Shown: positions 1 through 52,250 of the stretch, in pieces
How positions within the stretch are numbered: position 1 is the first letter of the stretch
Layout: each line of letters begins with the position of its first letter
Assembly (NCBI GenBank): GCA_036768485.1
Contig: JAVLUZ010000273.1
Location: 2,413,669 to 2,477,668 of the forward strand
Source: Mermis nigrescens
Taxonomy: Eukaryota; Nematoda; Enoplea; Mermithida; Mermithidae
Length of the DNA: 64,000 nucleotides
Direction of reading: 5' to 3'
Program-made: the position numbers and the translations under genes
The notes under the pieces: model-generated
The model's database searches: none
Told to the model about the DNA's origin: nothing
Seen by the model: the letters and a program-made list of their open reading frames with translations, nothing else

Positions 1-877
1 GGCGCAATGCTGTAGCATAGGCTGTGTTGTGGCATAGGGAGGGAGGGGGCGCGCGCCAGCCCAGAGCCAGGGGCCCAGGGCCAGGAAAAGGGTAAATTTT
101 CCTGGGGGAAATTTCCATGGGGGAAATTTCCCTATGAGAAAACTTGAAATAAGTATAAATCAAGAACCAGTGGTCGGATTGGGCTGAAATTTTAGGGTTA
201 GGATGAACACCTTATTAGCAAACTACTACAAAAATTTTGAGGGAGCACCTACAGTATACCAGCATAAGTTCACACTTTTGCATGACTCAAGAACTAATGG
301 CCGGATTTTGTTCAAATTTTCAGGAAATGATGTATAGACGTTAGCTGTGCTATGTACAGAATTTCAGCGCGTAACCTAGAGTATGCCGATTACACTGCTT
401 TTTCAGTTGCCACCCTAGGACCTTATCTTATAGCGTTGTAGTGTTATAGCATAGGAGTCTGACCTGCCTGGACAAACCAGAGCCTGTGTTGTAGCATAGG
501 ATGCCGGGTAAAGCGGGGGCGGTGGACGAGGCAAATCTGCGCCCTGGCCCAAAATCAAGGTCGCGCCAGGGCGCAAATGGCTTGGGGTCCTGAAAAAGGG
601 GTTCCTCCGCATTTTATCGATTTTTTTACAGTAACAGCTGGTTCCGAAACAACTTGTTCCGAAACAAAGGCAATATAAGTTGTGGGTGAGGGGTAAGAGA
701 GTATTGTTGTATTTTGGGGGGACTAGTGTAAAGTGTAAAGCTAGTGTAAAGTGTAAAGTAGTGTAAAGCAAGCTTAGGGAAAAAGTTTTTTCCTACAATT
801 TTAGAATATTTATGCATCAGTTTCATTTTTTACAGTAACAGTTGGTTCCGAAAGAATTTGTTCCGAAACAACATTGT

Positions 878-879
<2 letters not shown>

Positions 880-952
<73 letters not shown>
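880..952 (+). repeat. GT microsatellite (mirrored as AC at 7582-7652)
   Basis: About 36 uninterrupted TG units. The mirror tract at 7582-7652 shows it was present before the arms were duplicated. Confidence 0.95.
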
Positions 953-954
<2 letters not shown>

Positions 955-1067
955 GGGGGTAGCAGTCCCTGTGGGAGTCCACAAGCGCCACCTCCACAAA
1001 CGCCACCTCCAGAAGCGCTACTGCGTTCACTATAGCCTTTATAGTGAGTTTACGAAAGTAGTCAGCT

Positions 1068-1782
1068 ATTTCGTCATCATGTCATAGCGATTATTATCTA
1101 CGTGCAAATTAATTATTTTGATGGCCTTTGGCCCTTCATAAAACAGAATATTGTCCGAGTAAACTTTAATTTGGTAGTCAGGTACCAGAACGTTTTGAAT
1201 TTTTTCAACAGCATCAAGACCGTATTTTTCTTTATCAGTGTTAAGATCAGCTTTGTGCATTGAGTCTAGAGCAAGCTGCTTTTGTAAACAATGTCGCCCT
1301 TTATCGCCTTTCCTAATAGACTCCCATTTTGGGCTATTGTCCAGCTTTGCTATTCCTGTAACAACAGCTCGAGGAAGTGATGAATTATCATTTGATGCAA
1401 TTTTAATGTACGCTCCTCTGCCCAATTGTGGTTTCTTATTTACTACGACTACCTTGAAGATCATCTCTTCGTCAAACCTAAGCTCCTCACTGGACTGTGC
1501 TATATTTTCAATAATACTAAAAACTTTGTTGGTGTTCAGATACTGACGCTGAGTAAATGGAACTAATACAGGGAAGTCAAGGCATGAATGTTTGATTTCT
1601 AGACCTATCAGACTGTCTGCGGGGTAATGCTTGAGTATCTGCTGGATAGCTTGCTCAAACATCTCTTTAATATCAGGACAGTCATCGTGGTTTCTAAACT
1701 TTAGTCGAAATGTACTTGCAGCTGACTTAAACCTACGAACAGAAGTGAATGAGTGTTCGCTTACTTCAAAAAATTGATCCAT
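1068..1782 (-). pseudogene. Polinton PolB N-terminal fragment, left arm
   Basis: An open frame of 238 codons resembles the conserved region that precedes the exonuclease domain in Polinton protein-primed DNA polymerases, including the short motif GDKGRHCLQKQLA and a YDMMTK end. It stops where the gene would continue, and no exonuclease or polymerase motifs follow. The frame runs into non-coding terminal sequence. A TATAAATA box lies 36 bp upstream of the ATG, and the integrase is divergent from it. Assignment to PolB rests on remembered family appearance and is not a search result; a separate accessory protein is possible. It cannot act as a polymerase as it stands. Confidence 0.65.
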
Positions 1783-1818
1783 TTTTGAGGAAAACTATAA
1801 CATATACTGCTTGACCCT

Positions 1819-1826
1819 TATTTATA
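1819..1826 (-). promoter_or_regulatory. TATA box of PolB fragment, left arm
   Basis: TATAAATA on the minus strand, 36 bp before the ATG at 1782. Conserved at the equivalent site in the right arm (6705-6712). Confidence 0.7.
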
Positions 1827-1877
1827 GACAAAATTATTGCATTAGATGGTAAGAATCCAAAAACTAGGAATGTTGTT

Positions 1878-1885
1878 TATAAATA
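1878..1885 (+). promoter_or_regulatory. TATA box of integrase, left arm
   Basis: TATAAATA lies 27 bp upstream of the in-frame ATG at 1912. It sits downstream of the first ATG at 1846, so it argues that translation starts at 1912 and not 1846. Conserved in the right arm (6646-6653, minus). Confidence 0.7.
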
Positions 1886-1911
1886 GATGGAATGCTAAAA
1901 ATTGTTCAAGA

Positions 1912-2970
1912 ATGAATAAAATACTTAAGAAACTGTACTACAATCCACAAAGTGGAAACACTGGCGATAATCAACTTTACACTCGCATAAAAAAGATTCG
2001 CCCGACTGTTAAATTAGAACAAGTACGTGCCTGGCTAGAAAAGCAACCCACCTATACTTTACACAAACCCGTCCTCAAGCATTATTCACGAAATAAAGTA
2101 TTAGTAAGCAGCATTGATGAGCAATAGCAATGTGATATTGTAGATCTTCAATCTTTAGCGAGGCATAATGATAATTTTAAGTATCTCTTGAATTGCATAG
2201 ACATTTTTTCAAAATACGCATGGTCTCTTCCTCTAAAATCTAAAAGTTCAAAAGATGTTCTGACCGCTTTTCAAAGCATTTTAAATTCATCTAATCGAAA
2301 ACCGTACAAGCTGCAAACGGACGCAGGGACCGAATTTACAAACAAGGAGTTCCAGAAATTTCTAAAATCTGAATCTATCGATTTTTTCACGACCAGAAGC
2401 GAAACAAAAGCTAGCATAGTTGAACGTTTTAATCGCACGGTTAAAGAACGTATGTGGCGGTACTTCACAAAGAGTAATTCGTATAAATATATTGACATAT
2501 TACCCGACTTGATAAAAAATTATAATCACTCTAAGCATCGTACGATAGGTACATCGCCAGCTAATGTGACCGTAAAAAATGAGACGGACATCTTGAATAG
2601 AGCATTTAGAATTGATAAACAGAACGTTGTCTTTAAATTTAATATTGGCGATAAAGTCCGACTGAGTAAAGTTAAGCGCACTTTTGAAAAAGGATTTTGG
2701 CCCAACTGGACAGAGGAGTTTTTCGTAATTAAATAAAGATATGCTCGAACCCCATCCGTTTATGTTCTAGAAGACCAAATGGGCGAAAGAGTCGAGGGTA
2801 TTTTTTATGAGCCCGAATTGCAAAAAATTGAAACAAAAACTGACGATTTGTATGTAATTGAAAAGATTTCGAAAACACATAAGAAAGGCAATAAAACTGA
2901 TTATTTAGTACGGTGGCGAGGGTACCCAGAAAAGTTTGATTCCTGGGTCTCGAACCTAATCAAGCTATAA
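1912..2970 (+). pseudogene. Polinton integrase with chromodomain, left arm
   Basis: Retrovirus-type (DDE) integrase that would insert element DNA. The catalytic core is visible: first Asp in QCDIVD near 2135, second in TDAGTEF near 2325, Glu in SIVERFNR near 2415. A C-terminal chromodomain follows (YLVRWRGYPEKFDSWV near 2905-2955), as is usual for Polinton integrases. The start at 1912 is chosen from the TATA box 27 bp upstream. An in-frame TAG at 2125-2127, just before the first catalytic Asp, and a TAA at 2734 break the frame. The right-arm copy has Trp at the first position, so the TAG is a later lesion. The gene is divergent from the PolB fragment, and its stop codon lies inside the next gene's TATA box. 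Confidence 0.92.
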
Positions 2971-2973
2971 ATA
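2966..2973 (+). promoter_or_regulatory. TATA box of unknown gene, overlapping integrase stop
   Basis: TATAAATA contains the integrase TAA stop (2968-2970) and lies 34 bp upstream of the ATG at 3008. The same overlap of stop codon and TATA box occurs at 52756-52763 in another Polinton. Confidence 0.7.
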
Positions 2974-3007
2974 GTAAGTAATTATGTATTTCCAATTAAA
3001 GGCACAA

Positions 3008-3325
3008 ATGGAGATCAGCCGATGTTTTTTCAATCATATGTTGCATCGTTTGTCACAATACACTTACTTGTCTGATGATGCAATTGCAGATTATTTTTGG
3101 CCAAAAATGAGCGAGCAATATAAGCAAACATTGCTGGAATTTGATGAGAATGCCATGTTGAGCTTCTCAAAGTATATCAGAAAACGATTAAAAAAGGGCG
3201 ATATTTACACATTATTTAAATTATGGGAATTTCTAAGTCCCGAGGCCAAATTTTATTTTGCAAACCTTTACACCACACACATAGACGAGCACCTAATCTC
3301 ATCCTTGTCTAAGGTTTTAATATAA
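3008..3325 (+). CDS. Unknown Polinton gene, about 105 residues
   Basis: I do not recognise this protein. The frame opens at 2984, but the TATA box 34 bp before the second ATG favours a start at 3008 (MEISRCFF). The product is about 105 residues, looks helical, is rich in Phe, Tyr and Leu, and has a basic stretch (KYIRKRLKKG) in the middle. It has no membrane segment, cysteine cluster or nucleotide-binding motif. It lies between the integrase and the TBP-like gene and is repeated in the right arm with a frameshift. This left copy is intact. A structural or DNA-associated accessory role is only a guess. Confidence 0.6.
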   Translation: MEISRCFFNHMLHRLSQYTYLSDDAIADYFWPKMSEQYKQTLLEFDENAMLSFSKYIRKRLKKGDIYTLFKLWEFLSPEAKFYFANLYTTHIDEHLISSLSKVLI

Positions 3326-3330
3326 AGTTT

Positions 3331-3557
3331 TGCGGAGTTTGGAAAATTTTTTGTAAAGTTTTAAAATTTTTTTGTAAAGTTTGGAAATTCTTTTGTAAAG
3401 TTTGGAAAATTTTTCGCAGAGTTTGGAATTAATTTTGTGTGCTTAAGCTTAGGAATTTTGCAGAGTTTGGAAAATTTTTTGTAAAGTTTGGAAATTTTTT
3501 GTAAAGTTTGGAAAATTTTTTGAAAAGTATGGAAAATTTCCTGTAAAGTTTGGAAAA
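3331..3557 (+). repeat. 21-bp minisatellite GTAAAGTTTGGAAAATTTTT
   Basis: About ten degenerate units of a 20-21-bp motif, with GCAGAGTTTGG variants, separate the unknown gene from the convergent TBP-like gene. It is mirrored at 4971-5197. A near-identical unit (GTAAAGTTTGGAACATTTTT) forms arrays in the foldback element at 39.2 and 42.4 kb. Confidence 0.9.
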
Positions 3558-3560
3558 TTA

Positions 3561-4116
3561 TCATTTAATTTGGCATCGTTCAAGCGTTGTTGAGACTATT
3601 TTATATGCTATATGCAACTCATGCTTGTGTTTTGCACCTGTGAGAATCATTTTTCCGCTTGTAAAGAGCAAAAATGTTACATTTTGAAATTTGTATACTA
3701 AACCAGGAAACAATTCTACTTCGTACATGCATTTCCCATTTACCATCTCATAAAATTTACAAAGATCAATGCGAAATCCCAAGTTAGCCGAGCCAACAAA
3801 AAGCTCAGGCTTTATTTTCAACATTGAATTATGTTATTATGGGTAAATGAATCAAAAAAAAAATAAAGCCCTCATCTTTAGTATTTGGATGAATGCCTTT
3901 ATCGTATTTTCGCCTTCTTGTATAGTTTTAGCTCCAACGCATACAATTTTACCCGATCTGAAAATCCAGTAATGCTGCCTGCGGTAATCGAAATACAATA
4001 CCTGGAAATCTTTGGTGACTGTATTGCGCAGTATTTGGCAATTTCAGATAGACATCATCTAGATTTAGCGTATTCGGCAGTGCTGTAGTTAGCACAATGT
4101 TCTGTATTGTGACCAT
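3561..4116 (-). pseudogene. TBP-like protein (two-repeat TBP core), left arm
   Basis: Encodes a TATA-binding-protein-like core of about 185 residues with no N-terminal extension. Repeat 1 starts at the ATG at 4116 (MVTIQNIVLTT), carries RFPGIVFRL, and continues after a 1-base frameshift near 3967 with an SGK-IVCVGAK motif. Repeat 2 lies at 3824-3561 with VGSANLGF, ELFPGLVYKF and LLFTSGKMILTGAK. These match the paired SGK-x-V-x-TGAK motifs, the FPG turn and the DNA-intercalating Phe positions of TBP. An insertion near 3827-3870 adds a second break. The gene is divergent from the packaging ATPase, with TATA boxes between them. Function (recruiting transcription to element promoters) is inference; fold assignment is strong. 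Confidence 0.88.
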
Positions 4117-4120
4117 TTTC

Positions 4121-4154
4121 TATAAATACCTGTATATATAAATCATTATTTATA
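4121..4154. promoter_or_regulatory. Divergent TATA promoter between TBP-like and ATPase genes
   Basis: Forward TATAAATA at 4121-4128 lies 33 bp before the ATPase ATG at 4162. Reverse TATAAATA at 4147-4154 lies 31 bp before the TBP-like ATG at 4116. The two genes share a 45-bp intergenic region that is almost entirely TATA-like. Confidence 0.72.
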
Positions 4155-4161
4155 AACAAAA

Positions 4162-4600
4162 ATGATTTTTCAACATCCTTTCACCTGCCTTGTCTCAGAG
4201 CCAACAAAATCGGGCAAAACAACGTTTGTTAGGCGACTGATTTGATACTAAAATTAAAAAGATTTGGTGGTGCTTCGCATAAAACCAACCGCTTTATAAG
4301 AAAATCGATCATGTGTCATTTATAGAGGGGCTTCCTGATTTTAGTTACTTTAAGCAGTTCAGCCCTACACCACAACTTTTGATACTCGATGATTTAATGC
4401 AAGAGAGTAAAGGTAATGCTCAAATTGTACAACTATTCACAAGGAGTTGTCATAATTGGAATATTAGCATCATTCACATTGTACAAAACGCTTTCTTCGA
4501 AGGTCTCAGAACATCGCGTATAAACTCGGATTATATTGTTTTATTTAAAAATCCTGCTGATCAGCTACAAGCACAAATGCTGTCTAGGCAGCTTTACTGA
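4162..4600 (+). pseudogene. Polinton packaging ATPase (FtsK/HerA-A32 type), truncated
   Basis: ATPase that would pump the genome into capsids. The first 27 codons carry a Walker A loop (SEPTKSGKTTF near 4195-4228). A frameshift near 4235 and a stop follow; then the frame from 4313 carries a Walker B (LLILDDLM near 4377) and the following HIVQN motif near 4475. The C-terminus is cut after LSRQLY, exactly where the right arm of the palindrome begins. It lies in the unique loop, so only one copy exists. It starts 33 bp after a TATA box and is divergent from the TBP-like gene. Confidence 0.88.
4586..4599. other. Palindrome junction with microhomology
   Basis: AGGCAGCTTTACTG at the ATPase 3' break is nearly identical to the complement of 3966-3980 inside the TBP-like gene (AGGCAGCATTACTGG). 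In the ATPase it encodes RQLY of a conserved motif; in the TBP-like gene it encodes part of QAALL. The sequence is therefore native to both genes, which suggests fold-back template switching at short homology. Confidence 0.75.
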
Positions 4601-4965
4601 TTTTCAGATCGGGTAAAAGTGTATGCGTTGGAGCTAAAACTATACAAGAAGGCGAAAATACGATAAAGGCATTCATCCAAATACTAAAGATGGAGAATTC
4701 AATGTTGAAAATAAAGCCTGAGCTTTTTGTCGGCTCGGCTAACTTGGGATTTCGCATTGATCTTTGTAAATTTTATGAGATGGTAAATGGGAAATGCATG
4801 TACGAAGTAGAATTGTTTCCTGGTTTAGTATACAAATTTCAAAATGTAACATTTTTGCTCTTTACAAGCGGAAAAATGATTCTCACAGGTGCAAAACACA
4901 AGCGAGAGTTGCATATAGCATATAAAATAGTCTCAACAATGCTTGAACAATGCCAAATTAAATGA
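4600..4965 (+). pseudogene. TBP-like protein, right arm (5'-truncated)
   Basis: Continuous frame from the junction through the repeat 1 tail (IFRSGKSVCVGAK) and all of repeat 2 (ELFPGLVYKF, LLFTSGKMILTGAK) to the stop at 4963-4965. It lacks both the frameshift and the insertion that break the left copy. It also lacks the first 50 or so codons, which exist only in the left arm, and has no promoter of its own. This is the cleanest evidence that both TBP repeats belong to one protein. Confidence 0.88.
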
Positions 4966-4970
4966 TAATT

Positions 4971-5197
4971 TTCCAAACTTTACAAGAAATTTTCCAAACT
5001 TTACAAAAAATTTTCCAAACTTTACAAAAAAATTTCCGAACTTTACAAAAAATTTTCCAAAGTCTGCAAAATTCCTATGCTTAAGCACACAAAATTAATT
5101 CCAAACTCTGCAAAAAATTTTCCAAACTTTACAAAAAAATTTCCAAACTTTACAAAAAAATTTCCAAACTTTACAAAAAATTTTCCAAACTCCGCAA
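4971..5197 (-). repeat. 21-bp minisatellite, right arm
   Basis: Mirror of the array at 3331-3557, with slightly different unit number and variants. Confidence 0.9.
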
Positions 5198-5216
5198 TAC
5201 TTTATATTAAAACCTT

Positions 5217-5518
5217 AGACATGGATGAGATTAGGTGCTCGTCTACGTGTGTGGTGCAAAGGTTTGCAAAATAAAATTTGGCCTCGGGACTTAGAAATTC
5301 CCATAATTTAAATAATGTGTAAAATATCGCCCTTTTTTTCGTTTTCTGATATACTTTGAGAAGCTCAACATGGCATTCTCATCAAATTCCAGCAATGTTT
5401 GCTTATATTGCTCGCTCATTTTTGGCCAAAAATAATCTCCAATTGCATCATCAGACAAGTAAGTGTATTGTGACAAACGATGCAACATATGATCGAAAAA
5501 ACATCGGCTGATCTCCAT
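5217..5518 (-). pseudogene. Unknown Polinton gene, right-arm copy
   Basis: Copy of the gene at 3008-3325. It is intact from the ATG at 5518 to about residue 60, then a 1-base loss in the A/T run at 5335 shifts the frame. TATAAATA lies 35 bp upstream (5553-5560), supporting the same start as chosen in the left arm. Confidence 0.75.
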
Positions 5519-5552
5519 TTTTGCCTTTAATTGGAAATACAGAATTACTTAC

Positions 5553-5560
5553 TATTTATA
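5553..5560 (-). promoter_or_regulatory. TATA box of unknown gene, right arm
   Basis: Minus-strand TATAAATA 35 bp before the ATG at 5518, overlapping the end of the integrase gene as in the left arm. Confidence 0.7.
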
Positions 5561-6619
5561 ACTTTATTAGGTTCGAGACCCAGGAATCAAACTTTTCTGG
5601 GTACCCTCGCCACCGTACTAAATAATTAGTTTTATTGCCTTTCTTACGTGTTTTCAAAATCTTTTCAATTACATACAAATTGTCAGTTTTTGTTTCAATT
5701 TTTTGCAATTCAGGCTCATAAAAAATACCCTCGACTCTTTCGCCCATTTGGTCTTCTAGAACATAAACGGATGGGGTTCGAGCATATCTTTATTTAATTA
5801 CGAAAAACTCCTCTGTCCAGTTGGGCCAAAATCCTTTTTCAAAAGTGCGCTTAACTTTACTCAGTCGGACTTTATCGCCAATATTAAATTTAAAGACAAC
5901 GTTCTGTTTATCAATTCTAAATGCTCTATTCAAGATGTCCGTCTCATTTTTTACGGTCACATTAGCTGGCGATGTACCTATCGTACGATGCTTAGAGTGA
6001 TTATAATTTTTTATCAAGTCGAGTAATATGTCAATATATTTATACGAATTACTCTTTGTGAAGTACCGCCACATACGTTCTTTAAGCGTGCGATTAAAAC
6101 GTTCAACTATTGCTAGCTTTTGTTTCGCTTCTGGTCGTGAGAAAATCGATAGATTCAGATTTTAGAAATTTCTGGAACTCCTTGTTTGTAAATTCGGTCC
6201 CTGCGTCCGTTTGCAGCTTGTACGGTTTTCGATTAGATGAATTTAAAATGCTTTGAAAAGCGGTCAGAACATCTTTTGAACTTTTAGATTATAGAGGAAG
6301 AGACCATGCGTATTTTGAAAAAATGTCTATGCAATTCAAGAGATACTTAAAATTATCATTATGCTTCGCTGAAGATTGAAGATCTACAATATCACATTGC
6401 CATTGCTCATCAATGCTGCTTACTAATACTTTATTTCGTGAATAATGCTTGAGGACGGGTTTGTGTAAAGTATAGGTGGGTTGCTTTTCTAGACAGGCAC
6501 GTACTTGTTCTAATTTAACAGTCGGGCGAATCTTTTTGATGCGAGTGTAAAGTTGATTAACGCTAGCAAGTGTATCCACTTTGTGGATTGTAGTACAGTT
6601 TCTTAAGTATTTTATTCAT
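5556..6619 (-). pseudogene. Polinton chromodomain integrase, right-arm copy
   Basis: Same gene as 1912-2970. The N-terminal region and first catalytic Asp are intact here (EQWQCDIVD near 6390), the second Asp lies in TDAGTEF near 6205, and the chromodomain ends near 5570. Different lesions break it: a stop near 6285, a frameshift near 6140 by the catalytic Glu region, and a stop before the chromodomain near 5795. The start at 6619 has TATAAATA 27 bp upstream. Confidence 0.9.
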
Positions 6620-6645
6620 TCTTGAACAATTTTTAGCATTCCATC

Positions 6646-6653
6646 TATTTATA
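6646..6653 (-). promoter_or_regulatory. TATA box of integrase, right arm
   Basis: Minus-strand TATAAATA 27 bp before the ATG at 6619, at the same spacing as in the left arm. Confidence 0.7.
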
Positions 6654-6704
6654 AACAACATTCCTAGTTTTTGGATTCTTACCATCTAATGCAATAATTT
6701 TGTC

Positions 6705-6712
6705 TATAAATA
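6705..6712 (+). promoter_or_regulatory. TATA box of PolB fragment, right arm
   Basis: TATAAATA 36 bp before the ATG at 6748. Confidence 0.7.
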
Positions 6713-6747
6713 AGGGTCAAGCAGTATTTGTTATAGTTTTCCTCAAA

Positions 6748-7467
6748 ATGGATCAATTTTTTTGAAGTAAGCGAACACTCATTCACTTCTGTTCGTAGGT
6801 TTAAGTCAGCTGCAAGTACATTTCGACTAAAGTTTCTAAACCTTGATGACTGTCCTGATATTGAAGAGATGTTTGAGCAAGCTATCCAGCAGATACTCAA
6901 GCATTACCCCCGCAGACAGTCTGATAGGTCTAGAAATCAAACATTCATGCCTTGACTTCCCTGTATTAGTTCCATTTTACTCAGCGTCAGTATCTGAACA
7001 CCAACAAAGTTTTTAGTATTATTGAAAATATAGCACAGTCCAGTAAGGAGCTTAGGTTTGACGAAGATATGATCTTCAAGGTAGTCGTAGTAAATAAGAA
7101 ACCAGAATTGGGCAGAGGAGCGTACATTAAAATTGCATCAAATGATAATTTATCACTTCCTCGAGCTGTTGTTACAGGAATAGCAAAGCTGGACAATAGC
7201 CCAAAATGGGAGTCTATTAGGAAAGGCGATAAAGGGCGACATTGTTTACAAAAGCAGCTTGCTCTAGACTTAATGCACAAAGCTGATCTTAACACTGATA
7301 AAGAAAAATACGGTCTTGATGCTGTTGAAAAAATTCAAAACGTTCTGGTACCTGACTACCAAATTAAAGTTTACTCGGACAATATTCTGTTTTATGAAGG
7401 GCCAAGGGCCATCAAAATAATTAATTTGCACGTAGATAATCATCGCTACGACCTGATGACGAAATAG
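6748..7467 (+). pseudogene. Polinton PolB N-terminal fragment, right arm
   Basis: Copy of 1068-1782. A T-run expansion right after the start (near 6765) and small indels near 6910 and 6980 shift the frame. From 7069 the frame is open through GDKGRHCLQKQLA to YDLMTK and the same stop. Both arms end the gene at the same codon, so the truncation predates the arm duplication or is built into this element family. Confidence 0.65.
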
Positions 7468-7591
7468 CTGACTACTTTCGTAAACTAACTATAAAGGCTA
7501 TAGTGAACAGCAGTAGCGCTTGTGGAGGTGGCGTTTGTGGAGGTGGCGCTTGTGGACTCCCACAGCGACTGCTACCCCCAACACACACACA

Positions 7592-7654
<63 letters not shown>

Positions 7655-8625
7655 ACAATGTTGTTTCGGAACAAATTCTTCCGGAACCAACTGTTACTGT
7701 AAAAAATGAAGCTGATGCATAAACATTCTAAAATTGTAGGAAAAACTTTTTTCCCTAAGCTTGCTTTACACTACTTTACACTTTACACTAGCTTTACACT
7801 TTACACTAGTCCCCCCAAAATACAACAATACTCTCTGGCCACTCACCCACAACTTATATTGCCTTTGTTTCGGAACAAGTTGTTTCTGGAACCAGCTGTT
7901 ACTGTAAAAAAATCGATAAAATGCGGAGGAACCCCTTTATTCAGGACCCCAAGCCACGGCGCCCCTGGCGCGACCTTGATTTTGGGCCAGGGCGCAGATT
8001 TGCTCGTCCACCGCCCCCGCTTCACCCGTCATCCTATGCTACAACACAGGCTCTGGTTTGTCCAGGCAGGTCAGACTCCTATGCTATAACACTACAACGC
8101 TATAAGACATGAGTCTAGGGTGGCAACTGAAAAAGCAGTGTAATCGGCATACTTCTAGGTTACGCGCTGAAATTCTGTACATAGCACAGCTAACGTCTAT
8201 ACATCATTTCCTGAAAATTTGAACAAAATCCGGCCATTAGTTCTTAAGTCATGCAAAAGTGTAAACTAATGCTGGTATACTGTAGGTGCTCCCTCAAATT
8301 TTGTAGTAGTTTGCTAAGAAGGTGTTCATCCTAACCCTAAAATTTCAGCCTAATCCGACTACTGGTTCTTGATTTATAGTTATATAAAGTTTTTTCCTAG
8401 GGTAATTTACCCCCATGGAAATTTCCCCCAGGGAAATTTCCCTTTCCCTGGCCCTGGGCCCCTGGCCCTGGCTGGCGCGCGCCCCCTCCCTCCCTATGCA
8501 ACAACACAGCCTACAGCACAGCATTGCGCCCTGAGAAAAGCCAGGGCGCAGATTCTGAGCCCCTCCGCCTATGCTATAACAGTACAACGCTATAAGATAA
8601 GGTCCTAGGGGCCACGGTATACTAC

Positions 8626-8632
8626 TTTCAAT
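8626..8632. other. Right terminus of Polinton 1 and predicted target duplication
   Basis: The element should end at ...ACTACT (8626). The following six bases TTCAAT are the predicted target-site duplication, to be found before AGTAGT upstream of the window. Polintons characteristically make 6-bp duplications and end in AG...CT. Confidence 0.55.
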
Positions 8633-8903
8633 CGTACAACTTCCTAGATTTCTCTGTTTTCTAAGAAAAATTGCTGCAATTTTTTGCAGCTTTTTGATAA
8701 GAGCACGTTTTCAAGTAGCTAACAGAATGTTTTCCGTGCACAAATTATTTTCGAATTTTAGCACGTGTGCATAGGGTGCAGTGCACAAAAAAACCCGCTT
8801 CCACGTCTCATATAACCCGCAAAAACAGAAGAAAAAGTAGCTACATACTTACATAAGGCACAGGAATCGCAATTATTTGTCTATCGATTTATAAAGTAAA
8901 GCC

Positions 8904-9433: not shown

Positions 9434-10518
9434 GTAATTCCAGAAAAATTATGCTCAATTTTAGTGAAACTGACTCAATTTCAGGACGATTTTGATCAAG
9501 GACAGGCAAAATTTAGCAGTAACTTGTACTTCAGGCACGTTGCAAGTGCTTTTTTGAATTCTAGTGCATTTCTTATTTATTTTATGTTAGAAAATATACA
9601 AAGCGCAAATAGTTTTTGAAAATGTGTTTTATGTCTCATCCCTTTAGTTAATTAAATTGCACTTTTCTAGATATTCAGGATAATTTTATCATGGATGTCT
9701 CAAGTAGCCCCACCTGAGGGTTACTAGAGATGCAAACATTATTTTCTGAAAAAAAATTCTTCTTTCATGTTTTGATTTTCTGCACTTTTTGAGTACACAT
9801 TTTGCGGGAATTGGCGCAATATTGACTTTTTACAGCACTTTTTTGTAAAGTAACTGTAAATGAAATTTGTCTCAAATAGCCCTGTTGTATGGTTTCTGCA
9901 GAGTTTAAACCTCATTTTCCTGATTTGCATAAATATTATCATACCTGCGTGCTGCATTGTAGTTTATTTGAGCTTGGGTTTGTGGTTCTCGAAATGGCGT
10001 TACAATCCAAGGCTTACAGGGGTATACACTCTCCCTATGAATAATACCGACGTCCCGTCCATGTTCAAATTGATAATCAATGGAGCACTGTAACTACACA
10101 AAAAAGCAATATGAGTTGATCCAGGCCATTTAGCATAAACGTTTAGAAATCGACATTTGCTGTTCAGAAAGCATTGTATATTAAGCGAAGGATAAAATTT
10201 TCATTCCATATATTTATTTTCGTTGACAGAAGGGCACTGGATACGGATTTGGATTCCATCTACTGCATCGAGAGCACCAGTAAAATAAGCTTTGATTAGA
10301 GAAATTCTGATTTTTAACAGATTTTGCGCCTTTAGGCATATGCGTAGGTAGCTCTTTCTTAGTCCCTTCCTTTTACATCCTCAATAATCCACAATCCCAA
10401 GTAAATTCGTCTTTTCCGTTCCATCAATGCATTCTTTGCTAGTAACAAATGGAAGACTGCAATTTTTTTGTAGGTTAACAATAAATTACCTGACTAAATT
10501 GTTGCTCTTATTTGCAGC
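9434..10518. other. No feature seen
   Basis: AT-rich sequence with short frames only; nothing coding or repetitive that I can support, apart from a possible splice acceptor at its right edge. Confidence 0.5.
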
Positions 10519-32215: not shown

Positions 32216-32966
32216 TTGAAAGTAGGACGATTTATTTTTTCGGAAATGCAATTTGATAATCACTTTCATCGAAACAAATGGAGTCAATTCATCTACATCG
32301 TCTTAGATATTAATTTCAATACTTGAAAGATCTTTAACTAGGACGAGCACGTAGTGAGGGAAGTCAAAGGTTTTATCGATAATATCAGAGTAGGACCTTT
32401 CTACGATAACAATTCGTCATAAGAGAGCCGCCACATCTCCAACAATTTGCGGTACTAAAATTTTTGAATAAAAGTAAAAAACCGCAAAACCACCATTGTG
32501 TAAATTTGGCTCGTTTACGCCCCATCTTGATATCACTATTTTCTCATCATGATACTCTAAAATTTTAGTCATTTCTGATGGCAATGTTATCGATTTTACG
32601 TATTCATTGAGTACTAATGCATGCACTCGTTTTACTACACTTTGGTATTCAGAGAATATTCTTTTTTTAGCCATTTTGTCTGCATTTAAAAGGCAGAACT
32701 GTATAGTTTCATCAAACTCGTTTATTGAATCATAGCATCCGATTGGTAACCTAACTGTAAGCTCATCATCGTCCGCATCTTTAAGTCTGATGACAGCTCC
32801 GCCTTCCTTTAACGTTTCCCAGTTGTGTGGATATATTAATTGACACAATCCACTTTCCCAATCTCCAGTTAATGTTATTTTTTAGGTAAATGCACAGTAA
32901 ATTGAGATGGGGTGTTTTGCTTGTCACTTATTTTGATACTAGTATAGTTATATAAAATTTATCCAT
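32216..32966 (-). pseudogene. Polinton penton (minor capsid) protein
   Basis: Single jelly-roll vertex capsid protein by family resemblance. Start ATG at 32966 (MDKFYITI), parallel to the start of the copy at 54840 (MDTKQF). Then LTGDWESGLCQLIYPHNW near 32870-32820, the open frame to 32417 with VPQIVGDVAALL, then after a shift DKTFDFPHYV near 32380 and LHFRKN near 32240. A one-base slip in the A-run near 32885, another near 32410 and a stop near 32320 disable it. In virions it would occupy the five-fold vertices beside the major capsid protein. Confidence 0.8.
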
Positions 32967-33018
32967 TGTTTAGCAATTTGATTAACTAGAAATTCTTCAT
33001 TTACTCCTGTTGTGCTGA

Positions 33019-33675
33019 AGCCCGATTTATACTTCACGCGGCGAGCGAAGCGGCGAGAAATAGCCGCAACGGCTGCTGCTGCTGAAATTTCGCGCAAACC
33101 CATTTATATTTCGGGCTGCGGCGCGGCAGCCGGCGAATTATTCGCCGCCGCAATTTGATTTATACTTCACGCGGCCGCCGCGCCGCGGACTGATTTGCAA
33201 AAGTCTAAATTTTTTCGCCGCTTTCCAATTTATACTTCTGCCGCGCCGTAAGGAGTCAAAATTGTTATTTTTAGCTTTTTCGGCCATTTTTTCGCCGCGC
33301 CACAAAAGTCAAAAAGCCCATTGCTCTTGCGAATGCTAATGAGGTTTTGAGCCGAGTGTCGACGTCGAATCATATTGAATTTTAATGAGGTATCGATTTG
33401 CGCAATAGGAGAACCCAGCGTCCTGCTTCTGCGGCAGTTCGCAGGAAGTATAAACGCATTGCGCGAAGCGGCTGCGAGGCGGCGGTTTGGTGCCATCTTG
33501 TCACTGGTTTTTTGTCCACGCGGCGAGCTCGCCGCGTGAAGTATAAATGCACGACGCGGCGCGGCAAGCGGATTTTGCCGCAGAATATTCGCGCAGGGTC
33601 GACTAATTTTTGGGCATACTGTGGCCGCAAAACCCCTTTGCGGCGCGGTTCGCGTGAAGTATAAATCAGGCTTGA
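33019..33675. mobile_element. GC-rich MITE, family A, copy 2
   Basis: Ends AGCCCGATTTATACTTCACG and GTATAAATCAGGCT. TGA on both sides fits a 3-bp duplication. Same family as 8904-9433. It separates the penton from the protease. Confidence 0.78.
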
Positions 33676-34113
33676 GCCTAAATAGACTATTTACAAGACC
33701 GGTAACGAATTCATCAGAAAAGCTTTTTCTTAACTTTGTAGGATCGATTTCATAGGCACTTCTCTGCAGCGCCATACTAAAAAATATACGCACAATTGTC
33801 CGCACGTAGATGTTAGAGGTTTCTGCACACATTTCTTATTATATTTTAACTGTGATGCATATTTTAGTACGTACTCGCGCGTTTTTTCACTAGACGATAG
33901 CCCGTAGCTATCGAAATATTCGCATTTATCATTTGCATCGAAAAACAAGCCTACCCACTGTGAGCCGGGCAGATTACTAGAGTCTGTATTCATAACTAAT
34001 GCAGATGGTTTACTAAAAATTAGCGGTAGTTTATCGCTCGGAAAAACTCCACAAAAAACTCGACCAACCGCCTGGTCGCTTTTTAAAACGTTAATTAGCT
34101 GAATAGTATTCAT
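33676..34113 (-). pseudogene. Adenain-like capsid maturation protease
   Basis: Cysteine protease of the adenovirus-protease family used by Polintons to mature capsids. ATG at 34113, three bases after the capsid stop, so the two may share a transcript. Motifs: NTDSSNLPGSQWVGLFFD, YFDSYGL (Asp region), STCGQLCVYF (catalytic Cys). The position that carries catalytic His (THW in this family; TH is kept at 54565) is SQW here, so activity is lost. A frameshift at about 33790 moves the C-terminus into another frame, which runs to the MITE edge. Confidence 0.82.
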
Positions 34114-34116
34114 CTT

Positions 34117-35429
34117 TTAAGCAGTATAATCAAATATTACATTTTGATGCTTATCTAACATTACTAAATTATCAAATTCGGCGTAAACTACTACTTCGAT
34201 ACCTGTATCTGGAATTTTTTCTGCTAAGGAAATTTCAATGCTAGTCGTACCTTCCCTAATTAGATCCCAATAGGCGCCGTCATCTTTGTCGGGAGTGAGA
34301 TCAAATGTAAAAAAGCACTGACCCTCGTTGAACCCTTTTCGAGTTATATTGTTTCCTTTATTGTCCCTAGCAATATACAGCACTTCAAATAATTGATCGA
34401 ACGCTCTAATATACTTCCCTCCCTTAAAATCTAGCTTCAGAGGGTGGGAAGGAAAAGCCGCGCCACTAGAAGTCACTTTAACTTCATTTGTGCTATATGA
34501 TTTTTTAAATTAAATGGCGATACTTCAACGTTACCTCGATACGCGTCTACATCGATGCATCCAAAGATTATGCGTCTAGGGAGCTGTCCGATACATAATG
34601 TGTCAAGTGGGGTCGACTGAGATGTACTGGGAATGTGTAAGTTCATCATCATTACTCTACGAATTGGATACTTTGATGTATTTTTAGTCAGCACTTGCTC
34701 AACAGCGTAATGCACACTGTCTAAGATTTTCGTTTTCCTTACTAGAAATTTCATTTGTTGTGCACTCAGACGAGCATTTATTGGTCCACCTGGGCTTTCT
34801 AAAACAAATGCATCCTGATTTCTATTTAATTCGAGTCTTAAATCGGTATAGTTCAATAAAACTCTGTCTTGCAAAAATAAATCGATATGAAGCGGAGCTG
34901 TTACTTGAATTATTGTTTTATCTTTGAAGTTAGAAACGCGCTGTTTAAAGCCATAATTATCTTCAAAATCCCCTTTATTATCTTGAGTATACAATGCGGA
35001 TTGTAAATGCGAATTTTTCGCATCCCAATCATAGCTTAGTTCGGTCTCTAAGAAAGCTCTGTATGCATATTTATCGCCGCAATCATGTACGAGTTTACCA
35101 TTTAAAAATAACTTGATTGTCTAAAAAATGTTTTACCTATTAAATTCATGGGCGATACAGCTGGTGTGGCAGGAATTTTTTCATCTGCTCCTGCTAGCAT
35201 AACACCTGGAGATAATGAAAGTTGCATGTAAATGTAATCTTTATTTAGTTGCGAAAAATGAGGATCGGGAGGTATGTGAAATTCGTACGGACCTTCATCT
35301 GTTACTGGGTTAGTCACATTGATTTCATCCCAATATCCTCGTTTCACAGCAATCTGGGTAGGAGGAACAGTGAAAAAAATCTAATTCGCTTTTTGTACTA
35401 GCGAGTGAGAGTGAATCGATCAATGACAT
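34117..35429 (-). pseudogene. Polinton major capsid protein (double jelly-roll)
   Basis: About 437 codons from ATG 35429 to stop 34117, the expected size for Polinton capsid proteins. N-terminal STKSELDFF, then GYWDEINVTNPVTDEGPYEF, then SPMNLIGKTFF; middle NFKDKTIIQVTAPLHIDLFL; C-terminal FFTFDLTPDKDDGAYWDLI and VVVYAEFDNLVML. It aligns block by block with the plus-strand copy at 53206. Frameshifts near 35365, 35115 and 34480 break it. A degenerate TATATTTT lies about 25 bp upstream. Confidence 0.88.
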
Positions 35430-35465
35430 TTTCCTTTTTGCTTTTTACTTAAAAATATATCCTGC

Positions 35466-35803
35466 TTAGGTTCTATTATAGACTTTGAACGCTCCCCAAG
35501 ACCACGTCCTTTTGTAATCTGCCTGTTTTAATATATTTGATGCGCCTTCTCTTCCATGCTGTTCGAATAATTGTATGATAGGTCGACCGCGCAGAACATC
35601 AGCTGCTACATGAGCGCCGGAAGCAAGCGCCTGCTTTCCAATGCTAGTCGCCGCCAATTTCATTAATGTTATTGCCATTCGAAAAAGTAAGCAAAAAAGT
35701 TACCCTGATCCGTGCCTCGTTGGTAAGGTGTCCTTTTAAATCCAATTATACTACCATAGCCGACCTGTGAAGCCTGGTCGCTATAGTAGTAGAACTGAAT
35801 ATT
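35466..35803 (-). pseudogene. Polinton small px-like protein
   Basis: Small protein conserved just upstream of the capsid gene in Polintons. Here: QVGYGS, TPYQRGTDQG, FF-MA, then SIGKQALASGAHVAADVLRG and REGASNILKQ. The copy at 52801 has the same blocks. A frameshift at the FF-MA junction separates the two halves near 35680. Probably a virion-associated protein with a hydrophobic middle; exact role unknown to me. Confidence 0.65.
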
Positions 35804-35917: not shown

Positions 35918-36290
35918 AGTAGTTATATGTGGGACCCTAGAGTGCAACGCTATAACATATGCAATGGTTAAGCATAGGCAATTCTTAAGAATAGACAACG
36001 TAATAACATAGGCTAATGCTATAACATATACAATGGTTAAGGATATACGATGGGATGGAGCCTTGCTCCCTGGGATTAGGGTCAGGGAGCAATGGTTAAG
36101 GATAGACAATGGTTTAAGATAGGCAATGGTTAAGCATAGACTAACGCTATAACATATGAGGACATAGTTGAGGAGTGGAAGGGGAAAACTAGGATTAAAC
36201 CTGAACTAAGTGTAAACTAATTGCGAGTGATATACAATGGTTAAGCATAGACTAACACTGTAACACATGAGGACATAGTTGAGGAGTAGA
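35918..36290. repeat. Terminal CTATAACATA-rich block (mirrored 45570-45941)
   Basis: Repeated GCTATAACATATG, GGTTAAGCATAG and similar motifs. Related motifs occur near both ends of Polinton 1 (430-500, 8040-8105, 8575-8600) and at 60010-60035. Confidence 0.75.
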
Positions 36291-36743
36291 AGGGGTAAAT
36301 TAAGCCTAAGCAAGCTAAGCTAAGCCTATGGGTAAACCAAGACTGAGCTAAACGAAGTGTAAATTAATTGTGAGCGACCCTGAGTAAATTGTCTGACATA
36401 CACACCCATACTAGCGCGCCTGTGCCCTGGGGGTGAGGAGGAGGAGCCCCCCAACACGTCAAGCATATTCCCCCTAAAATGTAGCAGGGGTCCACTTTTT
36501 CTACCCCTGTCACTCAGTCCAAAAAATTGCCTTAAATGTGCCGAAGTATGGCAAAACTAAGCTGAAGGAGTGTGTAGCAGGGGTCCGCTCTTGCTACCCC
36601 TGCCACTCAGTCTTAAATATATCTAAAATGTGCCAAAGTAAGACATAACAAAGCCCAAGGACTGGATGTGAGTGTAAAGTAAGCCTAGCTGCGCTAGGTA
36701 TTAAAGTGGACCTATGCACAAAAGGAGTGTGTATATACAGGTT

Positions 36744-36845
36744 TGACTTCCCGGTCCTTCGTCACTTACCGGTCCTTCGAATTCCCGGTCCTTCGTCACT
36801 TCCCGGCCCTTTGAATTCCAGGTCCTTTGACTTCCCGGTCCTTGC
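36744..36845. repeat. CCGGTCCTTCG short tandem repeats (mirrored 45014-45117)
   Basis: About six units of TTCCCGGTCCTTCG type with GAATTC or GACTTC spacers, in both arms. Confidence 0.85.
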
Positions 36846-38344
36846 TTGAGCCGGAGAAAACTATACCATTATGTATAAAAGATAGGACGACTTTTTTCAC
36901 ACAATTCGAGAATTTTAGTACATTTAAGCGTATAACTTTCGATCAGCTGGTATTTGTTAAAAAAATAAATACAATAAATGATCACAATTCATTCAGCTTG
37001 CTTAACAAATAGTCCATCTTTTATGTTATAACATGCTTACAGCGTGACTGTCGGTCAAAGTTGATGAACCTGCTCATCATTGAATAACTCATTTCATTGA
37101 AGTGAGGTTTTTGAGATGAATTCAAGAACCACTGAACGGATTTTGATGATATAAAGTCTTTTAGATATACAATCTTGGAATGAAACTATTTTGCCAAAAA
37201 AGTAAAGCTAGCCTATGTCTACAGTATGCTAGACTCGAAAAAGTGCTCAAACTTTGCTTAGTCACTACAGGTTAAGTTTCATATATTGGAAAATAGCAAA
37301 ATAGTTAGATATTTTAGTGCTCTAAATTTAACTCTGTCTTTGTTTTTCGCGTTTCTGCATAGTTCGTCCTGCAATTTCAATTGAATTTTTTCCAATATGG
37401 CTGCACCCATAAGGTGTGCATTTTACTCGCGCTATTTTTTCATATTTTTTAATGTTTGAGCACATTTTAGAAAAACCCCCCAAAAAAGCTCATTCGAATG
37501 ATAGCCTATTTGTCTGATTTACTAAAGAATTCCAGTTTTTCAATATGGCCGGCAGAAAGGCTGTCATACTGTAGCTTTTGATGTTTTCAGCTATTATTAT
37601 GTGAGTTTTTGACATATTTCAAAAAATTCATTCAGTAAGTAGCTAGAAAATTTAATGTTCTCAACGAGCTATGTCTCATGTTCTGAATCCTTCTCGTTCG
37701 TTTAGGAAAGTTCAAATACCTCAAAATTATTCATTGTATTGTGAAAATGCCGTGCATTGCAAATAATGGACCAATTGAGCTAAAATCTTGGTTTTGGATT
37801 GAATCAAACATATGCTGTAGAAATTGTCGATTATGGGTCATGGTCGAGAAAATCTAGTAGTTTTAATGTTTTTCGCTATTTTTACATCAAAATACACTGG
37901 TTTTGGCTCAAATAACTCAATGGTAGGTTCTGCATGTGTCTTGCAAAGGAGATCAACATCAACTTATATACCTACTGTAAAACTGAATACATGAGGAAGA
38001 ATAGCTCAAACTGATTCAGAATTTAACATACTGATCATACACCTTTAACAAAGTGTGTACTATTTGTAGAGCTGAGCACAAAGCAACTCACACTATTATG
38101 ATTAGTTAGGTCTCCGAGGCTATTCTTCTATGCTGAGGAGTTTAACAACACCTTTCATTTCAATACAATTAATACCTTAGAAACATAATTAAGATGTATT
38201 ATAAACTTTACTTGGTTCAAGCACTTCCTTTTTATTTGTGTAAGTTTAAGTAAAGTGTGCACTTAATTTAATAACATGTGAGCATTGAAAATGGCTCATA
38301 GGTTTTAGAACAAATATAAAGAAAGTGTAGGCAAATTGAGCAGT

Positions 38345-38695
38345 TTAGAAAAACGTGTGCAGAGTTTGGAAAAAAGTGTGCAGAGTTCGGAAAAAGTATG
38401 CAGAGTTTGGATAAAAGTGCGCAGACTTTAGAAAAAAGTGTGCAGAGTTTAGAAAAAAGTGGGCTGAGTTTGGAAAAAAGTGTGCAGAGTTTCGAAAAAA
38501 GTATGCAGAGTTTCGGAAAAAGTGCGCAGAGTTTAGAAAAAAGTGTGCAGAGTTTGGAACATTTTTCACACGTTATAACATGGGAAGTGTGCAGAGTTTC
38601 GAAAAAAGTGTGCAGAGTTTCGAAAAAAGTCTGCAGAGTTTCGAGAAAAGTGTGCAGAGTTTCGGAAAAAGTGTGCAGAGTTTGGAAAAGTACCG
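38345..38695. repeat. Minisatellite GTGTGCAGAGTTTGGAAAAAA (mirrored 43309-43690)
   Basis: About 16 units of roughly 21 bp. A TTATAACATGGGAAGT motif splits the array (38573-38589). Translated frames over it are repeat artefacts. Confidence 0.93.
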
Positions 38696-39227
38696 AGAAT
38701 ATTAAAACATATTTTGAGGTTATTCAAAATGTCATTATCATTCAGCCGACTATAGTACAATAGAGACATGTAGTTTAAGTGGGTGGGACTGAGTTCAGCA
38801 CTTATACAGGGCTAAGACCGACAGACGAGAATGATTTGGTCAAAAAGACTTTTTGCTTTGACATAGTTTTTAAATAGATTATGCGGGTATATTAGACTTA
38901 ACAATTTGATGCGTAGGCATGTCTTCAAGATAGAAACACAAGAATAAGCATTTAGTGTGGCCTACTTGGGTAGTGTGGCTGTAAAGTAATTTATCAGTCA
39001 GCCAATTTTCATAGAGATAGGTATTGTTTGCATATATACTTGCTACATAACAGTCCAGGCTGTTTGTTGGCTATAATATTCATTATTGCAACCCTTCATA
39101 CATGTAGGAAAACATTGCATTTTCATGGACTAGAGACATAAAGATTACAACACTGTTAGGTAGTCTTAAACAATATACTATGTACAGTAGGCAAAGTCTG
39201 CTGAATTTATAAGAATGCTTGTAAAGT

Positions 39228-39560
39228 TTAGAACATTTTTGTAAAGTTTAGAACATTTTTGTAAAGTTTGGAACATTTTTTGTAAAGTTTGGAACATTTT
39301 CTGTAAAGTTTGGAACATTCTTGTAAAGTTTGGAACATTTTTGTAAAGTTTGGAATATTTTTGAAAAGTTCGGAACATTTTTTGTAAAGTTTGGAACACA
39401 TTTTACACGTTATAACATAGGAAGTTTGTAAAGTTTCGAACATTTTTTGTAAAGTTTGAAATATTTTTGTAAAGTATGGAACATTTTTGTAAAATTTGGA
39501 ACATTTTTTGTAAAGTTTGGAACATTTTTGTAATGTTTGGAACAAAGCTTGTAAAATTTG
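39228..39560. repeat. Minisatellite GTAAAGTTTGGAACATTTTT (mirrored 42375-42775)
   Basis: About 16 units of 20-21 bp, split by CACGTTATAACATAGGAAGT at 39406-39425. The unit differs by about one base from the Polinton 1 array at 3331. Confidence 0.93.
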
Positions 39561-40028
39561 GAACAAAACTCGTAAAAGTCAGAAGAAAGTCATATAAATG
39601 GTCAAATATCCGAATTCAGCCACAATTAAAGGGGTATATTGCATCCAAAAACCTTGTTTTTATTGCCTAAGTTAATAAGGCAAGTAAAGCATAATGTGTA
39701 CACGCTGGTAAGCATCTGTACAGAAATTTGTATTTGTGACACTGTGTTATCTGTCTTATTGTTAGGTGTAAGCATGCTATTGCACAGAGTGCTTGAAATG
39801 TTGCTTGTTAATTGATAAAGAGCTAGTAGCCTAAGCACACAGAAATTTGGCAGAAAAACTCATATTGTATACACAATACTATTTAAATTCCAAACTTTAT
39901 TGGGAAAATGTGTGTTAAGCTCACTTGCATTGCTACATTAATTGAGAAATTTAGCCACAAGACAAAAATTCAGGCTGCATGCTTTTGTCTATATTGTAAA
40001 ATTATCATCTCAGTACTGCAAATCCTGA

Positions 40029-40352
40029 TATTTGGTAAAATGGTAAAATCCCGTAGCAAGAAGTTACTTGATTCACCTCTGCTGTAGGTGCGGGTGCCTA
40101 TTTTTCCCGATACACAGCCCTAGGCCAGCGTGTCTGATTAGACCGAATCTGGGTCACGGGGCCAGTGTGACTGCACAGAACGCTGTTACCATCCGCCACA
40201 CAAGTGCAGCTTCCCATTTATCGACCCCGGAGGGATGAAAGGCTGGGTTGGCCTGCCGAAAAGAACTGCGTCAACGTGGATTCGAACCTAGAACCTTGCG
40301 ATTCGTAGGTTTAACTGTTAACCACTCGGCGTCTCTCCGACAATGCTTTTGT
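40029..40352 (-). mobile_element. tRNA-derived SINE, only in left arm of foldback
   Basis: Minus-strand tRNA-like head: A-box GCCGAGTGGTTAAC and B-box GGTTCGAATCC near 40280-40335. The right arm lacks it (41930-41940 is the empty site). ATATTTG flanks both sides. The extra ATGCTTTTGTCTAT next to the head repeats sequence found 360 bp away, so the insertion is not clean. Confidence 0.75.
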
Positions 40353-46715: not shown

Positions 46716-46716
46716 A

Positions 46717-46721
46717 ATGAT

Positions 46722-50887: not shown

Positions 50888-50999
50888 ACCTCATATGTGG
50901 AAAGGTCTTATGCGAAAAATAACGTTTCTATTAAATTGGTGTACTTGCGGCTCAGTTTTTAGACCTGTGATTACAATCTTGCTAGTACTCAAAATGAGC
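50888..50999 (-). pseudogene. TBP-like gene, C-terminal fragment in duplicate
   Basis: Encodes the repeat 2 end (LILSTSKIVITGLK) paralogous to 31705-31820; cut at 50999. It shows that the duplication included part of the TBP-like gene. Confidence 0.75.
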
Positions 51000-52250
51000 G
51001 CCGTTGCTCTGCAATCTGGGATAGTATGTTTTGCGGAACAAAACAATCCGCATTGTTCAACATCAGTTTTATGCCCCTATCATGTTATATAGCAGATAAA
51101 TGAACTATGTCCATGGCTTTGGACCACGTTGCATATGTAGATAAAGTATCTACACGTGCCATTACTTGTACGGCCATTGCACACCTTAGTGCGCCTATTC
51201 CAACCATCCGGTCTTTTGTTTCCACTTGTGCAATCCAGCCATATATTCAGATCACGATAGTACGACATGCGGAGGCATTCCGACCACACAGTGTCATTTG
51301 GTTGGACTCTTCTCGCTACATGTTGCGAGGGATATGAAGATTCGACTTTTACTGTGGAACCCCTACAAGTCCCCTATCAATTTTTACAATTAAAACATAG
51401 GCGACATGACCGCTATTCACGTTGAGCCTGTGCAGAGACCCGAAAAATCTATGTGCAAGAAGCACACAATTTTTGTTATGAAAACCTTATATAATCTGTT
51501 TCTTCATATATTACTGTAGGCCATTCCCCCTACAATTATTAGTTAGTTTTGTGGCAGAGTTGCCTTTTTAATTTACTGGCGTGTCGTTTCCGACTGTATC
51601 AGCGCCCTAGCCTGTAAATTGTTTTGATTTGGTAAAAGCACAAAAACTAACTGTCTAGAGGTGCATTATACCGCAGGCAGTTAGGAATTGGGAAAAGGCC
51701 GGCCTCGACTTTATTTCTTGCCGGATTTTGTTGGGTAAAACCTTTTATTTATCATTTTGTGCAAAACTCATAATTCCACTTTCGAATCAAAAATCTATAA
51801 AACTTATTACATAATTTATATAGTGGATGACAGCCCGGAGTAGACCTCTTTGTTGTTGTCTTTTAAGTACAGAGTGCTATTGGAACCGGAATTTATAAGT
51901 TGTTTTGCCATAGGTAATCTAGCGCGAAACCTTTTCAATTCTTTTTGCGAAAAATTATTCTTTTGGTCTAAAAAAGGTCCAAGGGCCTAGGGCGAGTACC
52001 GAAGTTATCTAATTACTCCTGGTTAGGATCTGCACTCAGCATCTCCGTCCTGTAATCTCCATAAGTACCGGACCAGTTACGTCCATGGAGATTTTAGGTA
52101 ATAGGTATTTAGGATCATTTTGGAAGAGTGCAGGTTTTTACCGCAGCTTCTTGACCAGCGCTAGCTGTAGCATAAGTACTTAGGTAAGCCCCGAAGGTAC
52201 TTACTGGGGTTCGTTGCTTTGGTAGTTGTTGTGTGCAATAGCTTGAAGAA
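51000..52250. other. No supported gene
   Basis: Mixed-composition sequence at 51000-51350 with frames on both strands but no recognised family, then AT-rich sequence. Nothing called. Confidence 0.4.

Follow-up and report, generated by a model that had tools for sequence, protein, structure and literature searches.

TATA-binding protein genes carried by Polintons of the nematode Mermis nigrescens

Introduction

Polintons are small virus-like mobile elements (15–20 kb) which were thought to depend on the host for transcription. The DNA analysed here, a stretch of 64,000 nucleotides from the nematode Mermis nigrescens (the window), raises the question of whether Polintons can carry their own TATA-binding protein (TBP), the factor which specifies sites of transcription initiation, and what such a protein would do. 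A preliminary description of the window had proposed that a Polinton encodes a TBP-like gene with both core repeats, between a minisatellite and the ATPase gene, that repeat 2 is present again in the right arm of the element, and that this lineage has its own promoter-recognition factor.

TBP remnants in the window

The window contains the following features (L numbers designate loci of the genome):

1066..1782, minus strand: gene of the g238 family, 238 aa, no assigned function; open frame, 56% versus g238 of L028, no Pfam family above cut-off
1912..2970, plus strand: integrase with C-terminal chromodomain, stop codons inside; PF00665 46.4 bits and PF00385 31.3 bits on pieces, 73% versus L017 integrase
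2984..3325, plus strand: 113-aa ORF, no assigned function; open frame, no Pfam family above cut-off
3330..3560, plus strand: 21-bp minisatellite between the 113-aa ORF and the TBP stop codon, seen in the sequence
3561..3833, minus strand: TBP gene piece 3, repeat 2 through stop; PF00352 65.6 bits for 3564-3833
3852..4043, minus strand: TBP gene piece 2, end of repeat 1 in a different frame; PF00352 29.5 bits for 3855-4043
3949..4116, minus strand: TBP gene piece 1, start codon at 4116 and first half of repeat 1, then a frame break; PF00352 35.6 bits for 3952-4119, tblastn 67% versus the intact L017 TBP
4162..4600, plus strand: packaging-ATPase-like gene, first 152 codons, frame broken near 4241; tblastn 87-89% versus L017 ATPase
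4588..4965, plus strand: right-arm TBP copy, about codon 47 to stop in a single open frame; PF00352 92.1 bits for 4588-4962, two stretches, 71% versus L017 TBP
5556..6564, minus strand: right-arm copy of the integrase, broken; tblastn 66-72% versus L017 integrase
6758..7467, plus strand: right-arm copy of g238, broken; tblastn 36-64% versus g238 of L028
31729..32031, minus strand: decayed second-type TBP piece following the capsid genes of a different Polinton remnant (32240-35711, minus strand); tblastn 40%, 76 bits, versus L016 TBP
50888..51073, minus strand: decayed TBP piece of the second type; tblastn 51%, 58 bits, versus L016 TBP

Three frame pieces at 3561-4119 of the minus strand match the TBP family PF00352 at 29.5-65.6 bits when each is scanned apart (cut-off 22.9 bits). 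Coordinates and motifs of both repeats agree with the preliminary description, and the gene does lie between the 21-bp minisatellite and the ATPase start. The unbroken frame announced for the right arm was also found: 4588-4965 is open and its match covers two stretches. With 29.5-92.1 bits, the window pieces score far above background, which rules out a chance match.

The element (about 61-8471) is a long inverted duplication, the arms of which are 86-98% complementary. At the fold-back junction, codon 152 of the ATPase runs directly into codon 47 of TBP on the same strand; the right arm is therefore an inverted copy of the left one, and its TBP frame starts only at about codon 47 because it is part of this copy. 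The minus-strand gene, split among three frames, is dead, as is the right-arm copy, and the element is the dead remnant of a TBP-carrying Polinton.

The remnant is thus a fold-back made of two inverted copies of its left part, a form which resembles the defective genomes of linear protein-primed viruses. Another large inverted repeat (35918-45941, arms 96-98% complementary) contains 21-bp minisatellites and gave no tblastn match to any Polinton reference protein used. The window also includes a long trinucleotide-like microsatellite (46586-47228), which reads as poly-Ile/Asn frames.

Intact copies and their Polinton neighbours

A PF00352 search of the 524-Mb assembly (860 contigs) returned 2554 candidates; the best 150 were scored, and all are above the cut-off. 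These best 150 correspond to 139 distinct places, two of which are host exons (contig C73) and 137 are others, on 79 contigs. No internal stop is present in 129 of these 137, and in 111 the frame is 160 aa or longer; the top of the ranked list favours intact copies, and these counts are not fractions of all TBP copies. The copies are integrated, since they lie on contigs of up to 48.8 Mb. Intact Polinton TBPs score 140.6-162.5 bits over two stretches (5/5 scanned). The protein is a stand-alone core of about 165-185 aa, with two repeats and no N-terminal domain.

We examined 22 TBP loci, chosen non-randomly (19 picked across score classes and 3 more). Genes for integrase, ATPase, capsid-module proteins, protease or PolB adjoin TBP in 19 of the 22, including L037, whose Polinton neighbourhood is recognised only by weak capsid fragments. 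Intact homologues beside Polinton genes are what the proposal of a Polinton-encoded TBP predicted, and the host TBP is a different, split gene. Within 4 kb of the L036 TBP, only the accessory gene g113 and an F-box gene are found. The TBP genes of L018 and L024 are intact; their surroundings contain neither a hallmark gene within about 5 kb nor g113, and only a small secreted-protein-like ORF family.

Three gene orders recur. In arrangement A, TBP is divergent from the ATPase (window, L017, L020, L027, L028, L035); in arrangement B, it is downstream of capsid genes (L016, L022, L023); in arrangement C, it follows capsid protein, protease, ATPase and a small gene (L021, L026). F-box and PolB genes are near TBP in L013-L015. 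The Polintons of this genome carry a multi-copy TBP gene which is under selection, mostly intact among the best-scoring copies and distinct from the host TBP.

Other genes recur in these neighbourhoods. F-box genes are found near TBP in L013, L014, L015, L020, L021 and L036, and several of these loci also have PolB nearby. The small secreted-protein-like ORFs, which have a cysteine-rich LRR-N-like start, recur in L018 (5927-6227), L024 (3722-4036), L025 (3742-4047 and 8864-9169), L026 (6015-6317) and L028 (50-352); the L024 member matches no Pfam family above cut-off. In L026, the small gene which precedes TBP in arrangement C (4389-4814) encodes an AT-hook motif (PF02178, 20.1 bits).

The hallmark genes are recognised with uneven scores. 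The retroviral-type integrase matches PF00665 in the window (46.4 bits) and in L017 (44.3 bits). The packaging ATPase matches PF04665 (Pox_A32) at 22.8 bits in L017, which equals its cut-off, and at 21.6 bits in L026, below it; the adenovirus-type protease matches PF00770 at 24.2 bits in L029 (cut-off 21.3) and at 20.4 bits, below cut-off, in L017. As for a double jelly-roll capsid protein, the 439-aa capsid-module protein of L017 has no Pfam match, two metagenome relatives score 24.2 and 24.4 bits with PF21738, short of its cut-off of 27, and PDB searches with two capsid-module alignments gave nothing at E <= 0.001 (matches at E 0.06-0.42 were ascribed to chance). PolB is recognised by PF03175 in L014 and L015 (71.1 and 69.2 bits), with matches also in L013 and L019. 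Two PolB queries gave no match in the window or in loci of group A, among them L017 and L031, the left flank of L017 being outside the sequence covered. The L017 element spans about 9 kb between inverted repeats of 159 bp (907-1065 versus 9829-9987, 89%).

These elements share with Polintons/Mavericks the integrase with chromodomain, the packaging-type ATPase and the adenovirus-type protease, and apparently also the capsid-module proteins and, in some loci, PolB. They differ in that the window and group A loci have no match to the two PolB queries, and in that they contain TBP, which is outside the known core set, as the preliminary description had stated.

Fold and contact residues

The DNA-intercalating phenylalanines are present in 69 of the 72 cells of an alignment of 18 Polinton TBPs (two are Tyr and one is a gap). 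The first TFIIB-contact glutamate is kept in 18/18 and the second in 17/18. The TFIIA contacts are rare in the same 18 proteins (Asn91 in 3, Glu93 in 4, Arg107 in none) and in seven metagenome relatives (2/7, 0/7 and 0/7, respectively). The contact positions are those assigned from work on yeast and human TBP. On the basis of these residues, the Polinton TBPs keep the DNA-intercalating Phe and the TFIIB contacts, and have mostly lost the TFIIA contacts.

The structure prediction proposed earlier was made for P0045, a main-clade metagenome relative which is not a locus of this genome, and it gave the TBP fold. The model has a pLDDT of 95.1 and a TM score of 0.90 to both archaeal and human TBP; it matches 44 PDB entries at E <= 0.001, and ranks 1-44 are all TBP structures. 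The saddle fold is thus predicted for P0045. Compared with the TBP core (PF00352; PDB 1cdw, 1mp9), the two repeats, the predicted saddle of P0045, the intercalating Phe and the TFIIB glutamates are the same, whereas the Polinton TBP is Polinton-encoded, consists of the core only and has mostly lost the TFIIA contacts. The main Polinton clade is also far from the host TBP, and no closer to eukaryotic than to archaeal chains.

Host TBP and origin of the Polinton TBPs

In L011, the core of the host TBP is divided among exons, and two exon stretches are 82% and 69% identical to a fungal TBP. Its C-terminal half scores higher with human TBP (171.6 bits) than with yeast (160.1) and plant TBP (149.2), which marks the host as animal-like. 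The finding of the host TBP elsewhere in the genome rules out that a host gene was misread as viral. The Polinton TBP frames have no introns, whereas the host core is split.

A tree of 52 rows places 15 of the 18 Polinton TBPs with 7 metagenome proteins in a clade of their own (99/97), separate from the eukaryotic and archaeal TBPs, while the TBPs of L016, L022 and L023 group with the eukaryotic ones (97/88). Three long-branch rows of a first tree of 55 rows (P0009, P0011, P0012) were left out. The 7 metagenome proteins come from 17 examined, among 120 listed and 1197 matched, so at least 7 such relatives exist. Of the comparison with host, archaeal and giant-virus TBPs envisaged in the preliminary description, the trees cover eukaryotic and archaeal TBPs: the main clade stands apart from both, and 3 of the 18 join the eukaryotic TBPs. 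The tree rows include no identified giant-virus TBP. No relative came out of IMG/VR, which was scanned for TBP, capsid and other TBP relatives as well as for contigs with giant-virus TBPs.

Scored against known structures, the L017 TBP matches the archaeal chain 1mp9 (111.3 bits) better than human 1cdw (94.9 bits), and the L016 TBP is nearer to eukaryotic chains (138.7 versus 108.5 bits). Neither a single origin of all Polinton TBPs (p-AU 0.204) nor a grouping of the main clade with eukaryotic TBPs (p-AU 0.193) is rejected; TBP may have been acquired once or several times.

TATA boxes and the proposed role

Four boxes precede genes of the window element:

1819..1826, minus strand: TATAAATA box, 44 bp upstream of the 238-aa gene start
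1878..1885, plus strand: TATAAATA box, 34 bp upstream of the integrase start codon
4121..4128, plus strand: TATAAATA box, 41 bp upstream of the ATPase start codon
4147..4154, minus strand: TATAAATA box, 38 bp upstream of the TBP start codon

Promoters were counted at 101 Polinton starts which are at ATG, out of 115 found, near-identical loci being counted more than once. TATAAA begins 30-39 bp upstream of the start codon 20 times and 40-49 bp upstream 23 times, that is, 43 seen versus about 2 expected (about 1.05 per 10-bp bin) for these 101 starts, near-identical loci included. Similarly, TCTATAAATA was seen 28 times versus 1.2 expected in L012-L029, with near-identical loci again counted more than once. 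TATA[AT]A is present 28-60 bp upstream of 56 of the 101 starts and absent from 45. The starts without it comprise all those of F-box (5/5), PolB (2/2), protease (9/9), g188 (8/8), g178 protease (4/4) and g142 (2/2) genes. Protease and g188 genes abut or overlap the preceding gene. In L017, the members of the pairs g116/g188 and capsid/protease (5822-6735 and 7146-8893) lie end to end or overlap, and the second member of each pair lacks its own TATA box, which suggests two-gene transcripts.

Among distinct boxes, TATAAATA is found in 24/24 of group A and TATAAAAG in 5/6 of group B, the exception being probably upstream of a separate capsid fragment in L016. The box type goes with the TBP type in these two groups, a link which may be due to shared ancestry only. 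Group C, where boxes are few, may have host-type boxes at the TBP genes and TATAAATA at other genes. The TBP consensus is TATAWAWR, and TATAAATA should therefore suit the host TBP too; hence the boxes are no proof of the use of the Polinton TBP.

We consider it probable that the Polinton-encoded core TBP directs host Pol II to Polinton promoters. It would bind the TATA boxes of Polinton genes and recruit host TFIIB and Pol II, while TFIIA would play little or no part in initiation. Among the genes scanned, none was recognised as coding for an RNA polymerase or TFIIB.

Alternatively, the Polinton TBP could act against the host, by competing with the host TBP or tying up TFIIB and so damping host transcription, while the Polinton promoters use the host TBP. 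The retention of TFIIB contacts with the loss of most TFIIA contacts fits a titration of TFIIB, and the Polinton boxes also suit an ordinary TBP, judging by the consensus. However, the DNA-binding face is kept, and the match between box type and TBP type in groups A and B, unless it reflects common descent, speaks for a role at Polinton promoters. On balance, an anti-host role seems unlikely.

The reading in which the TBP serves Polinton promoters can be extended, tentatively, to an old virus-borne TBP lineage which split near the parting of archaeal and eukaryotic TBPs. On TATAAATA boxes of its own, this TBP would organise a pared-down initiation complex with host TFIIB and Pol II but without TFIIA. 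Another Polinton group would have swapped in a eukaryotic-type TBP, its boxes shifting to TATAAAAG. In some elements, the host TBP would first read the TBP gene, the product of which would then switch on the other genes.

Selection on the TBP gene

Nei-Gojobori counts give a dN/dS of 0.11-0.26 in 11 of 13 Polinton TBP pairs; of the others, L018/L025 has a ratio of 1.05 and L026/L019 is saturated. When L017 is compared with L027 or L028, the ratio is 0.157-0.166 for TBP, 0.082-0.094 for the ATPase, 0.081-0.088 for the capsid gene and 0.115-0.129 for the protease. The TBP ratio is near those of these Polinton genes. Several ratios of 0.35-1.18 in the close pairs L027/L028 and L016/L023 mean little because dS is under 0.07. 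The ratios indicate that the Polinton TBP is under purifying selection. These dN/dS values speak against an inert passenger gene. L016 and L023 differ in a mosaic way (dS of 0.003 for the capsid gene, 0.272 for TBP and 0.411 for g116), which suggests recombination.

It is very improbable that a host TBP copy was captured by chance and is carried without function, even if most animal Polinton genes decay after insertion, the window copies are broken and the L018/L025 ratio is near one: the low ratios in 11 of the 13 pairs resemble those of core Polinton genes, the main TBP clade is far from the host TBP, TBP is present in three gene orders, and the Polinton frames lack the introns of the host core. 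Less probable still is that the TBPs are host genes of a large TBP-related family near which Polintons inserted, as the isolated intact genes of L018 and L024 might suggest, since independent loci have the same order and orientation (e.g., the divergent TBP and ATPase genes of arrangement A) and Polinton-type TATA boxes precede TBP in group A. Indirect support for a lineage with its own promoter-recognition factor comes from the purifying selection, the kept DNA and TFIIB contacts, and the constant spacing at which TATA boxes precede many Polinton genes.

Viral TBPs and implications

A search of open-licence PMC papers found none, among those listed, which describes a Polinton TBP; one may be described elsewhere. 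Excerpts of papers that name Polintons together with TBP or TFIID assign the TBP to mirusvirus-like elements, mirusviruses or large viruses. Beta- and gammaherpesviruses have the TBP-like proteins BcRF1 and ORF24, according to excerpts of PMC4893493. As proposed here for Polintons, these DNA viruses lack an RNA polymerase of their own and supply a TBP relative to their promoters. However, the same excerpts describe the herpesvirus proteins as only distantly related to TBP and as reading TATT boxes (PMC4893493), whereas the Polinton TBP is clear by sequence. The Polinton boxes found are TATAAATA or TATAAAAG and none is of the TATT type, in a scan which covered TATA-type boxes only.

Virus-encoded TBPs are also described, in excerpts of PMC10132985, PMC11464507, PMC12085832 and PMC5825884, for giant viruses, mirusviruses and a large algal virus. 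These resemble the Polinton TBPs in being encoded by a virus; they differ in that the genomes are large and, as far as these excerpts go, many have their own polymerase or TFIIB. TBPs are already known from herpesviruses and large DNA viruses.

The pairing of TBP and box makes a direct biochemical test possible. If the TBP is indeed dedicated to Polinton promoters, it would provide a handle to tell these promoters from those of the host, and a small viral TBP to compare with the giant-virus and herpesvirus systems. It would possibly add an ancient branch to the TBP tree, and it would mean that Polintons choose their own promoters.
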